Origin: Brachyspira pilosicoli
GTDB taxonomy: Bacteria > Spirochaetota > Brachyspiria > Brachyspirales > Brachyspiraceae
Reading direction: 5' to 3'
NCBI RefSeq assembly: GCF_036997485.1
Contig: NZ_JAWLPU010000001.1
Location: 558,001 to 622,000 of the forward strand
Length of the DNA: 64,000 bases
A program made the position numbers and the translations under genes. A model generated the notes under the pieces. That model was not told the DNA's origin, did not search any database, and saw nothing but the letters and a program-made list of their open reading frames with translations. Numbering within the stretch: position 1 is the first letter of the stretch; every line of letters begins with the position of its first letter. Of this stretch, positions 58,670 through 61,708 are shown piece by piece.

Positions 58670-58697
58670 TTGACATTTTTGTAAATAGTATTACAAT
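58670..58697 (+). promoter_or_regulatory. Promoter of the first histidine leader and binding-protein genes
   Basis: TTGACA (58670-58675), a 16-bp spacer and TACAAT (58692-58697). Transcription would begin near 58704, just ahead of the leader-peptide ribosome binding site. Confidence 0.72.
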
Positions 58698-58728
58698 TAA
58701 GAGTAACAAATCAAATTAGGAGATAAAA

Positions 58729-58803
58729 ATGAATAAGATGTATTTTTCTGCATTTCAATTATCAAAATCTTTCTCTCCTAAACATCATCATCATCATCAT
58801 TAA
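58729..58803 (+). CDS. Histidine-run leader peptide 1 (24 residues)
   Basis: This tiny gene has a good ribosome binding site (TAGGAG at 58717-58722) and an ATG, and encodes a peptide whose end is SFSPKHHHHHH, six CAT codons followed by two stop codons (TAATAA). It lies between a clear promoter and the amino-acid-binding lipoprotein gene, 111 bp ahead of it. Runs of histidine codons at the end of a short leader are the hallmark of attenuation control of histidine genes (hisL), where ribosome stalling reports low charged tRNA-His. A second, related leader precedes the next paralogue. No strong terminator hairpin is visible downstream, so the mechanism is open. A metal-binding role of the peptide is the alternative. 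Confidence 0.75.
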   Translation: MNKMYFSAFQLSKSFSPKHHHHHH

Positions 58804-58914
58804 TAATCATTTCTTTAATAAACAAATATAAAAAACAATTTTAAAAACATTATTTTTTTATTACGTTTATATAGATTAATTTAAAAAAATTATTTAACTT
58901 AGGAGGAAAAAACT

Positions 58915-59715
58915 ATGAAACGTATATTAATTTTATTTTCTATGATTATTTTTGCTATATCTTGCTCAAAAACAGAAACGCAAAACACACAAACTGACAA
59001 CTCTCTACAAAAAGTAAAAGACAAAGGCAAACTTGTATTAGGCTTGGATGATACTTTTGCCCCTATGGGTTTTAGAGATGAAGCTGGAAATATAGTTGGT
59101 TTTGATATAGATTTAGCTCAAGAAGTTGCTAATCGCTTAGGAGTAAAATTAGAAGTTAAGCCTATAGATTGGGCAAGCGGTATATTAAGCTTAAATAAGG
59201 GCGATGTTGATGTTTTATGGAATGGATTTACAATTAATGAAAGCAGAAAACAGCAAATTAATTTCTCTAAGCCATATCTTAATAACAGACTTATAATAGT
59301 AAAATCTTCTGACAGAAAAGACATTAACAGCAAAGAAGACTTAAAAGGAAAAGTGTTAGGGGTACAGGTTGGAAGCAATCAGGAGGCATTAGAAGCTGAT
59401 CCTATAAGCAAAGAGGCTAAAGAGGTTAGACCTTATGATGTTAATGTTAATGCTTTCTTAGATTTACAAGCTAAGAGAATAGATGTTGTTGTAATAGATG
59501 AAGTTGCAGCACGTTATTATATATCTGAAGAGAATGTTAATTTTGAGGTTGTAGAAAATAGTCCATTAACTGAAGAGCTTTATGGTATAGGATTTAGAAA
59601 AAATGATGTAGAATTATTGAATGCTGTTGACAAAGCTTTAGATGATATGAGAGCTGATGGAAAAGCAGCAGAGATTTCTACTAAATGGTTTGGTAAAGAC
59701 ATAGTTGTAAAATAA
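58915..59715 (+). CDS. Amino-acid-binding lipoprotein, SBP family 3, paralogue 1
   Basis: This 266-residue ABC-type binding protein has lipobox FAISC (Cys at 17). It shows the family 3 pattern: GKLVLGLDDTFAPMGFRDEA, IVGFDIDLAQEVANRLGV, NESRKQQINFSKPYLNN (the Arg that binds the ligand carboxylate), LGVQVGSNQEAL and VVVIDEVAARYYI (Asp for the amino group). These fit a free amino acid as ligand. AGGAGG precedes the ATG. There is no permease or ATPase nearby. The upstream His-run leader hints that the ligand is histidine; this is inference. A hairpin (59723-59755) follows the gene. Confidence 0.9.
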   Translation: MKRILILFSMIIFAISCSKTETQNTQTDNSLQKVKDKGKLVLGLDDTFAPMGFRDEAGNIVGFDIDLAQEVANRLGVKLEVKPIDWASGILSLNKGDVDVLWNGFTINESRKQQINFSKPYLNNRLIIVKSSDRKDINSKEDLKGKVLGVQVGSNQEALEADPISKEAKEVRPYDVNVNAFLDLQAKRIDVVVIDEVAARYYISEENVNFEVVENSPLTEELYGIGFRKNDVELLNAVDKALDDMRADGKAAEISTKWFGKDIVVK

Positions 59716-59722
59716 CAAAAAA

Positions 59723-59755
59723 TTAATGGGGGCTAAATAATAAAGCCTCCATTAA
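59723..59755. other. Strong hairpin without a T run
   Basis: TTAATGGGGGCT (59723-59734) pairs with AGCCTCCATTAA (59744-59755), 12 bp with one G-U. On the plus strand it is followed by A-rich DNA, so it is not a standard rightward terminator; it could be a 3' stabiliser or partial attenuator between paralogues 1 and 2. Confidence 0.6.
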
Positions 59756-59790
59756 AAAATAAATAATTCAAAAAAAATAGGAGATTAAAA

Positions 59791-59862
59791 ATGAATAACA
59801 TTAAATGCTTTTTCAAAGTTCAATTCTTAAAACAATATTCTCCTAAACATCATCATCATTAA
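59791..59862 (+). CDS. Histidine-run leader peptide 2 (23 residues)
   Basis: This is a second tiny gene with AGGAG (59779-59783) and an ATG. Its peptide ends QYSPKHHHH, four CAT codons then TAATAA. It shares the SPK-His end and the N-terminal MN...F pattern with leader 1, and the DNA just after its stop is also similar (TAATAAT..TTTCTTT). It lies 112 bp before the second binding-protein gene, at almost the same spacing as leader 1. No own promoter is evident, so it is probably read through from the first gene. The third paralogue has no such leader. Confidence 0.72.
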   Translation: MNNIKCFFKVQFLKQYSPKHHHH

Positions 59863-59974
59863 TAATTTCTTTTTATTTTATAAACATCAATTTTAAAACA
59901 ATATTATATTTACTAACTTAAGAAAAAATTTATTTAAAAATTATAATTTAAAAATTTAAAAACAGGAGAAAACT

Positions 59975-60790
59975 ATGAAACGTATAATAACTTTATTCTT
60001 TATATTTATTTTTGCTATATCTTGCTCAAAAACAGAAACACAGAATGCTGCTCAAATTTCAGCAGATAATTCTTTACAAAAAGTAAAAGAAAGCGGAAAA
60101 CTAGTATTAGGTTTAGATGACACTTTTGCCCCCATGGGTTTTAGAGATGAAGATGGAAACATAGTTGGTTTTGATATAGACTTAGCCAAAGAAGTTGCAA
60201 ACCGCCTCGGGGTGGAGTTAGAGGCAAAACCTATAGATTGGTCCAGTGCTGTATTGAGCTTAAAGAAAGGCGATGTTGATGTGGTATGGAATGGCTTTGC
60301 TATTAGTGAAAGCAGAAAACAACAGGTTAATTTTACTAAACCATATCTTAATAACAGACTTATGATAGTAAAAAACGCAGACAGAGCTGATATTAAAACT
60401 AAAGAAGATTTAAAAGGAAAAATATTAGGAGTACAAACAGGAAGCAGTAATTATGAATCATTAGAAGCTGACCCTATAAGCAAAGAAGCTAAAGAAATTA
60501 GACAATATGATTTTAATGTTAATGCTTTTTTAGATTTAGAGGCTAAAAGAATAGATGCTGTAATAGTAGATGAAATAGTGGCTCGTTATTATATATCTAA
60601 AGAAAATGCTGATTTTGAACTTTTAGAAGAATACCCTATTACATATAAATCTTTTGGAGTTGGAATTAGAAAAACAGATGCAGAACTATTAAATGCTATC
60701 GATAAAGCTTTAGATGATATGAGAGCTGATGGAAAAGCGGCTGAAATATCTACTAAATGGTTTGGTAAAGATGTATTTGTAAGAGGATAA
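59975..60790 (+). CDS. Amino-acid-binding lipoprotein, SBP family 3, paralogue 2
   Basis: This 271-residue paralogue of the preceding gene has lipobox FAISC. Ligand-site segments are kept: GLDDTFAPMGFRDEDGN, SESRKQQVNFTKPYLNN, LGVQTGSSNYESL and AVIVDEIVARYYI. It carries a short insert (SSNYESL) relative to paralogue 1, shared with paralogue 3. AGGAGAAAA precedes the ATG. It lies between leader 2 and paralogue 3. High similarity of the three genes indicates recent duplication. Transport partners are not encoded here. Confidence 0.9.
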   Translation: MKRIITLFFIFIFAISCSKTETQNAAQISADNSLQKVKESGKLVLGLDDTFAPMGFRDEDGNIVGFDIDLAKEVANRLGVELEAKPIDWSSAVLSLKKGDVDVVWNGFAISESRKQQVNFTKPYLNNRLMIVKNADRADIKTKEDLKGKILGVQTGSSNYESLEADPISKEAKEIRQYDFNVNAFLDLEAKRIDAVIVDEIVARYYISKENADFELLEEYPITYKSFGVGIRKTDAELLNAIDKALDDMRADGKAAEISTKWFGKDVFVRG

Positions 60791-60857
60791 TTTAATACAG
60801 TATAACAAAAACTAAATAAAAAAACAAATAATTAAATAAAAAAATAGGAGAAAAACA

Positions 60858-61667
60858 ATGAAACGTATATTAATTTTATTATCAATATTTATTTTTGCTT
60901 TATCTTGTTCAAAAAATCAAACACAAAATACCGAAGCAGCAGATAATTCTTTAGAAAAAGTAAAAGAAAGCGGAAAACTTGTATTAGGCTTAGATGATAC
61001 TTTGGCACCAATGGGGTTTAGAGATGATAATGGTGATATAGTTGGTTTTGATATAGACTTAGCAAGGGAAGTTGCTAATCGTTTAGGGGTAGAGCTTGAG
61101 GCCAAACCTATAGATTGGTCTAGTGCTATATTGAGCTTAAAAAAAGGAGATATTGATGTGATATGGAATGGATTTGCTGTTAATGAAAGCAGAAAACAGC
61201 AAGTTAATTTCACTAAACCATATCTTTATAATAGACTTATGATAGCAAGATATTCTGACAGAAATGATATTAAAAGTAAAGAAGATTTGAAAGGAAAAAT
61301 AGTAGGGGTACAAAGCGGAAGCAGTAATTATGAAACATTAGTAAATGACCCTATAAGTAAAGAAGTTAAAGAGATTAGACAATATGATTCTTATGTTAAT
61401 GCTTTTTTGGATTTAGAGGCTAAAAGAATAGATGCTGTAGTGGTAGATGAAATAGTAGGACGTTATTACATATCTAAAGAAAAAGCTGATTTTGAAGTAT
61501 TAGAAGATAACCCTATTACATCTCAATATCTTAGTGTAGGTCTAAGAAAAACAGATACAGAATTGTTAAATGCTATTGATAAAGCTTTAGATGATATGAG
61601 AGCTGATGGAAAAGCGGCTGAAATATCTACTAAATGGTTTGGCAAAGATATATTTATAAAAGGATAA
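60858..61667 (+). CDS. Amino-acid-binding lipoprotein, SBP family 3, paralogue 3
   Basis: This 269-residue third copy has lipobox FALSC. The ligand-site motifs are intact (NESRKQQVNFTKPYLYN, VGVQSGSSNYETL, AVVVDEIVGRYYI). TAGGAG lies upstream. The 67-bp gap before it is A/T-rich and lacks a histidine-run leader, unlike paralogues 1 and 2, so it may be expressed by read-through. It is the last rightward gene before the convergent mmd operon, with a shared hairpin terminator between. Confidence 0.9.
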   Translation: MKRILILLSIFIFALSCSKNQTQNTEAADNSLEKVKESGKLVLGLDDTLAPMGFRDDNGDIVGFDIDLAREVANRLGVELEAKPIDWSSAILSLKKGDIDVIWNGFAVNESRKQQVNFTKPYLYNRLMIARYSDRNDIKSKEDLKGKIVGVQSGSSNYETLVNDPISKEVKEIRQYDSYVNAFLDLEAKRIDAVVVDEIVGRYYISKEKADFEVLEDNPITSQYLSVGLRKTDTELLNAIDKALDDMRADGKAAEISTKWFGKDIFIKG

Positions 61668-61677
61668 TTAATAAAAA

Positions 61678-61708
61678 TTAGAACAGAGGCATAAATCCTC
61701 TGTTCTAA
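61678..61708. terminator. Terminator between binding-protein genes and mmdB
   Basis: TTAGAACAGAGG (61678-61689) and CCTCTGTTCTAA (61697-61708) form a perfect 12-bp stem. On the minus strand it is followed by TTTTTATT, serving mmdB. In the plus direction it is followed by A6 then TTTAATTT. Confidence 0.88.

Follow-up and report, generated by a model that had tools for sequence, protein, structure and literature searches.

Two short open reading frames (ORFs) that end in runs of histidine codons were identified upstream of paralogous genes for amino-acid-binding lipoproteins on the genome of the gut spirochaete Brachyspira pilosicoli, and sequence comparison with RNA modelling suggests that each leader, together with the ribosome-binding site (RBS) of the next gene, probably forms a histidine-responsive translational attenuator, one for each leader-bearing cistron, which works without a terminator. 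The window analysed is a stretch of 64,000 nucleotides (NCBI RefSeq assembly GCF_036997485.1, contig NZ_JAWLPU010000001.1, positions 558,001 to 622,000), with features given on its plus strand. In the proposed mechanism, ribosomes supplied with ample charged tRNA-His would pass the run of CAT codons, terminate and leave the leader, upon which the sequence TCTCCT(AA) just upstream of the CAT run would pair with the Shine-Dalgarno (SD) sequence of the downstream binding-protein (SBP) gene and turn this gene off. Under histidine shortage, a ribosome stalled on the CAT codons would cover this anti-Shine-Dalgarno (anti-SD) strand with its footprint, freeing the SD of the SBP gene and leading to more of the uptake lipoprotein. 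We infer these steps, namely leader translation, ribosome stalling, the structural switch and induction, from the arrangement of the sequence and from predicted structures.

Leader ORF A (MNKMYFSAFQLSKSFSPKHHHHHH, 58729-58803) consists of 24 codons, is preceded by the SD TTAGGAGA (58716-58723) and ends in six CAT codons (58783-58800) followed by TAATAA, with its anti-SD at 58774-58782 (TCT CCT AAA, encoding Ser-Pro-Lys). Leader ORF B (MNNIKCFFKVQFLKQYSPKHHHH, 59791-59862) consists of 23 codons, with the SD TAGGAGA (59778-59784), the anti-SD TTCTCCTAAA (59838-59847) and four CAT codons (59848-59859), again followed by TAATAA. The encoded peptides end in SPK-His6 and SPK-His4, and gaps of 111 nt and 112 nt separate the leaders from the ATG codons of SBP-A (58915) and SBP-B (59975), respectively. 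As in known leader attenuators, a short ORF with its own SD is situated upstream of the target gene and is enriched at the critical position in codons for the amino acid to be sensed (six or four CAT). A preliminary description of this DNA, made from its letters alone, had reported the two duplicated leaders ahead of paralogous SBP_bac_3 genes, and was confirmed exactly; the promoter TTGACA-16-TACAAT that it placed before leader A was located at 58670-58697. This sigma-70-type operon promoter matches the consensus at 11 of 12 positions and is the best promoter-like site of the region. The anti-SD against the SBP gene, the third SBP gene, the distribution across the genus and the link with loss of histidine biosynthesis were all absent from that description.

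Leaders A and B are the only SD-preceded short ORFs of the window that end in a His cluster. They were also the only two occurrences of TCTCCT-N(0-9)-(CAY)3 in a pattern search of the whole 2.7-Mb genome, and in the three nearest locus-bearing genomes this pattern was found in orthologous leaders only (A, B and C in G007; A and B in both G025 and G018). A phage origin was considered and rejected, as no near match was found.

The leaders resemble hisL of the enterobacterial his operon, a short ORF that monitors charged tRNA-His through its His run and in which stalling turns the downstream gene on. In Proteobacteria and some Firmicutes, his operons are known to be preceded by His-leader attenuators with terminators (PMC9413887). 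Given a terminal His run as in hisL, stalling might be expected to choose between an antiterminator and an intrinsic terminator before the SBP gene. Transcription attenuation of this type is, however, very unlikely here. No terminator-like site was found on the coding strand between either leader and its own SBP gene, in line with the earlier remark that no strong terminator follows the leaders; the strand lying under the stalled ribosome is, in the predicted structures, the one that pairs with the SBP SD; and leader B follows SBP-A with no promoter-like site of at least 10 consensus matches between them. Such a location of leader B, downstream of SBP-A and lacking a strong promoter, is more in keeping with a translational device for each cistron than with termination of transcription. 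The B. pilosicoli leaders differ from hisL further in that the targets are uptake SBP genes, the output is predicted at their RBS, and the His run extends up to the stop codon. A non-classical mechanism, possibly stalling that exposes the next RBS, had been put forward in the preliminary description, and appears favoured by the comparative evidence and the RNA modelling.

The sequence TCTCCT was found unchanged in all nine intact leaders of the B. pilosicoli group (types A, B and C), which derive from four related genomes, so that these paralogues and close species are not independent samples. The peptides of leaders A, B and C differ outside of SP(K/R/Y) and the His run, with divergent N-terminal two thirds, and in leader G018b (leaders being named by genome and type, with G000 as the genome of the window) lysine is replaced by tyrosine with TCTCCT kept. 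In G000, Ser and Pro are most often encoded by TCT and CCT, respectively. In the predicted minimum-energy structures, the SD of the SBP gene was paired with the TCTCCT of its own leader in nine of nine cases. The SD in question is TTAGGAGG (58899-58906) for SBP-A, which the predicted OFF state shows bound to the anti-SD of leader A, and AGGAGAA (59964-59970) for SBP-B, which is complementary to the anti-SD of leader B over 7 bp. In G000a, G007a, G000b, G025b, G007b, G018b and G007c, the helix stops 0-2 nt short of the first His codon. In G025a and G018a, TTC (Phe) stands in place of the first CAT and the helix reaches into that codon; these two differ at both sides of the pairing, with AAATTC versus AAACAT in the leader and AATTTAGG versus AACTTAGG in the RBS of the SBP gene, giving ten contiguous Watson-Crick pairs (CUCCUAAAUU/AAUUUAGGAG).

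When pairing energy and position were considered jointly, p values were 0.001-0.018 by codon shuffle and 0.0005-0.007 by base shuffle, while pairing energy without the position criterion was weak (codon-shuffle p 0.009-0.10). A pairing that would sequester the SD in the unstalled state, as in translational attenuators, is predicted by the folding and shuffle analyses. The degenerate leader G018c is without TCTCCT and has two His only, and the SD of its SBP gene is predicted to be open in both states modelled (0.6 kcal/mol).

An anti-SD can pair with any SD, that of the leader itself included. The SD of leader A, TTAGGAGA, is a perfect 8-bp complement of the leader's own TCTCCTAA in type A, with 6-7 bp in types B and C, and in some leaders of the main clade of Brachyspira (G009, G004, G015 and G002) the region around the His codons pairs with the leader's own SD region (p 0.01-0.04). 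The anti-SD might therefore act mainly on the leader's own SD, as feedback on leader translation that affects the SBP gene only indirectly. This is distinctly unlikely, given that the predicted structures of all nine intact leaders pair the anti-SD with the SBP SD and that in G025a and G018a the helix with the SBP SD is lengthened and that with the leader SD is not. Under the attenuator model, a ribosome initiating on the leader would block pairing of the anti-SD with the leader's SD, biasing the strand towards that of the SBP gene; as the anti-SD can also close the leader's SD, the strand may toggle between the two.

The free-energy cost of opening the SD of the SBP gene was then calculated with a ribosome footprint placed at leader initiation or stalled at each terminal His codon. 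For leader A (G000a), the predicted cost fell from 7.0 kcal/mol to 1.0-1.2 at His codons 1-4, and was 2.5 at the fifth and 5.4 at the sixth; this rise indicates that the early CAT codons would be the effective ones. Costs in kcal/mol at initiation and stall, respectively, were 5.8 and 1.1-1.4 for G007a, 8.9 and 1.3-1.8 for G025a, and 6.8 and 2.6 for G018a. For leader B (G000b) the cost changed from 6.2 to 2.5-3.1 kcal/mol, with similar calculations giving 6.0 to 2.5-3.0 for G025b, 6.6 to 1.4-3.0 for G018b and 6.8 to 1.4 for G007c. The effect was weaker for G007b (3.4 to 0.7-2.9 kcal/mol). It persisted when the temperature was set to 39 C and when the footprint was made smaller or larger, with the last His codons of leader A no longer effective under the smallest. 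A codon-shuffle test of the stall at the first His codon, covering 16 of 27 leaders (leader C and ten others being left out), gave p values of 0.01-0.03 for type A and 0.03-0.44 for type B, the value of 0.44 for G007b being not significant. Relief of sequestration by a stalled ribosome, another property of translational attenuators, is predicted by the footprint model, in which main-clade leaders showed little stall effect.

Comparison across a set of 26 Brachyspira genomes showed SBP relatives in all 26, with only distant ones in G001 and G020. An SD-preceded short ORF, situated after a TTGACATTTTT-type promoter and upstream of a close SBP orthologue, was found in nearly all genomes readable at this locus; the gene start of G006 was left out of close reading, and the contig of G001, a clade member, ends before the locus. 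The exceptions are G021, where a similar promoter lies directly before the SBP gene without a leader, and G010, where no leader was found. Main-clade leaders end in LHTTFVH, HHTTH, NKHHTN, HYTNHRYHR, HFTTNH, HHTTAY or TFKH, with one to four His in a typical peptide. When the last 8 codons of six main-clade leader types are taken together, 12 of 48 are His (background 0.8%; p=4e-15), compared with 3 of 77 in the remainder. Judging from this distribution, the leader is old in Brachyspira. The leader ORF is genus-wide, and the long His run is restricted to G000, G007, G025 and G018 (the B. pilosicoli group), genomes without histidine biosynthesis and with three SBP copies. The best explanation of the sequences compared is that the leader with poly-His and anti-SD elaborates an older Brachyspira leader with His codons.

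Folding and shuffle analyses of the main-clade leaders gave no comparable pairing with the SD of the SBP gene, placing the anti-SD in one clade only, and an anti-SD mechanism in these leaders was rejected as not supported by the folding, stall-model and shuffle comparisons. Leaders with His codons and no such anti-SD were observed at L043, L049, L044 and L052. The leaders of G003 and G023 (L048, L037) share a 16-nt gap and have lost their terminal His codons, and both genomes retain histidine biosynthesis genes. Among some of the listed sites with CAT4 near TAA across the genus (L144-L173), screening gave a single SD-preceded short ORF with His codons clustered towards the end (L154, start TTG), which was not convincing as a leader, and no His-codon leader was seen upstream of hisG or hisB of prototrophic Brachyspira in L174, L178 and L179.

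Since main-clade leaders keep their His codons without an anti-SD against the SBP gene, another output may operate there. Rho-dependent or mRNA-stability control, whereby a stalled or terminating ribosome would alter Rho loading or RNase access with the anti-SD pairing being incidental, would be compatible with such leaders. As an explanation for the B. pilosicoli group it is unlikely, as it accounts neither for the position-specific anti-SD of leaders A, B and C nor for the joint loss of anti-SD and His run in G018c, and the region, being rich in AU and poor in C, does not resemble the usual Rho-loading sites. The peptide itself could also be functional, as a metal-binding oligo-His or secreted peptide, oligo-His being able to bind Ni and Zn in general. 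This alternative, the metal-binding form of which was raised in the preliminary description, found no support and is extremely unlikely: leader peptides A and B had no match in Pfam, nor leader A in NCBIfam, their N-terminal two thirds differ among A, B and C, main-clade peptides carry few His, and the neighbouring genes encode SBP_bac_3 amino-acid-binding proteins. Translational attenuation thus remains the preferred reading for the poly-His leaders.

Both histidinol dehydrogenase (hisD, PF00815) and IGPD (PF00475) were absent from G000, G007, G025, G018, G001 and G010. Both were present in 18 of the 20 remaining genomes, with G020 lacking PF00815 only and G008 lacking PF00475 only, each in an incomplete assembly (85-86%). 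The tgt tree places G010 beside the poly-His clade (support 0.993), so that the histidine gene loss could be one event, and the coincidence of poly-His leader and auxotrophy therefore counts as one clade and not as repeated evidence. As G010 is auxotrophic by the same two genes yet leaderless, auxotrophy does not require the leader. Passages of the B. pilosicoli genome paper (PMC2897892) report an incomplete histidine gene set and three PAAT binding proteins absent in B. hyodysenteriae and B. murdochii, and connect these two facts; leaders are not mentioned in those passages.

The SBP genes are SBP-A (58915-59715), its paralogue SBP-B (59975-60790) and a third paralogue, SBP-C (60858-61667). 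In the SBP tree, A, B and C are paralogues inside the poly-His clade with G010 as sister, which indicates that leader-gene units were duplicated there; together with leaders A, B and C in one clade, this bears out the suggestion that the leader-plus-gene unit is duplicated. The switch would have been duplicated with the SBP gene, and with the leader unit copied along, two cistrons of the cluster would each have their own. Leader C survives intact in G007 (MNNNFYTMQLLKNYSPRHHHH) and in degenerate form in G018, with none found in G000 or G025; in G000 the gap before SBP-C (60791-60857) is only 67 nt and leaderless. Leader loss before SBP-C seems from these sequences to have been piecemeal.

All three products were identified as SBP_bac_3 proteins (PF00497), with Pfam scores of 144.6, 142.1 and 140.5 bits against a gathering score of 26.4. 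They fall under every listed NCBIfam cut-off, and the ligand is therefore not given by annotation. Histidine as the ligand is suggested by structure: the best solved match of an AlphaFold model of SBP-A (pLDDT 90.4) was 4ohn, an SBP of S. pneumoniae with bound histidine according to the title of the structure entry, although arginine- and glutamine-binding relatives came close behind. The TM-score was modest at 0.65, likely due to a difference between open and closed conformations. No paper naming 4OHN was found in a search of the open-access literature. In Lentilactobacillus laojiaonis, a homologue (L119) occupies the third position of a permease-ATPase-SBP cluster preceded by a T-box (L119:1315-1539), the specifier of which was read as CAC (His) from the alignment. 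The same arrangement has been described for hisYZ*X operons, and a histidine T-box lies upstream of hisXYZ* transport operons in Firmicutes (PMC9413887). These T-boxes are similar to the proposed switch in that uncharged tRNA-His is sensed and a homologous transporter controlled, as in L119. They differ in being direct tRNA-binding RNAs with a transcription read-out and no leader ORF, and no T-box (RF00230) was found in the window, where the sole Rfam match above threshold was a tRNA gene.

In the leaders of the antibiotic-inducible translational attenuators ermC and cat-86, a stalled ribosome frees an SD that is sequestered by RNA pairing. The model for Brachyspira likewise frees a sequestered SD by stalling on the leader, but would respond to uncharged tRNA instead of a drug, and takes its sequestering strand from the codons just before the sensing codons. 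In the case of rtpA (anti-TRAP) of B. subtilis, the leader stop lies near the SD of rtpA, which is blocked by the terminating ribosome, whereas in B. pilosicoli 111-112 nt separate leader and gene, and it is the leader RNA that is predicted to bind the SD. As with the Brachyspira model, the rtpA leader peptide coding region sets translation initiation of the next gene through uncharged tRNA, here tRNA(Trp) (Chen and Yanofsky 2003/2004, as described in a passage of PMC11255114). Attenuated downstream translation has also been reported for mycobacterial poly-cysteine short ORFs (Canestrari et al. 2020, according to a passage of PMC9031893). These are likewise upstream ORFs in which codons for a single amino acid follow one another without interruption and, going by that citing description, differ in being leaderless, actinobacterial and of Cys, as opposed to SD-preceded, spirochaetal and of His.

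Both attenuators acting at translation and leader peptides in which the sensed codon is repeated in a run are already known (PMC9413887; PMC9031893; PMC11255114). What appears new is the arrangement, in which the sequestering strand lies inside the leader ORF right before the sensing codons, on a transport gene, duplicated per cistron and in a spirochaete. Searches of the open-access literature returned no report of the leader, nor of any amino-acid-sensing attenuator in Brachyspira. It is possible, though on balance somewhat doubtful, that this is a minimal starvation switch in a full sense: leader codons would supply the anti-SD, the strand 5' of the sensing codons would toggle between the SDs of leader and SBP gene with neither a terminator nor a separate downstream hairpin, copying with the gene would give each cistron separate histidine control, and the whole would have grown out of a simpler His leader in a lineage that no longer makes histidine. 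If true, this would show how an auxotroph can let the missing amino acid directly control the genes for its own scavenging, by means of a very small overlap of coding and regulation (about ten bases plus the codon run). The genus would also offer a series of no leader, few-His leader, poly-His leader with anti-SD, and degenerate leader. For the three binding proteins that passages of the genome paper (PMC2897892) tie to histidine need, it would point to their possible regulation.

We also infer that SBP-A, SBP-B and SBP-C are carried on one transcript. Between SBP-A and leader B, an inverted repeat (TTAATGGGGGCT...AGCCTCCATTAA, 59723-59755) was observed, which is present too in the three relatives, has no T-run after its second arm and may play a role in mRNA stabilisation or processing. 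Permease and ATPase genes are found directly upstream of the leader in prototrophic Brachyspira; their homologues in G000 lie together at L210 (G000:C1:1090500-1093500), far from the window locus and with no adjoining SBP gene. Between SBP-C and the convergent gene for a Na+-translocating decarboxylase beta subunit, a minus-strand hairpin of 12 pairs with a T-rich tail was identified at 61678-61708, and is likely to be a terminator.
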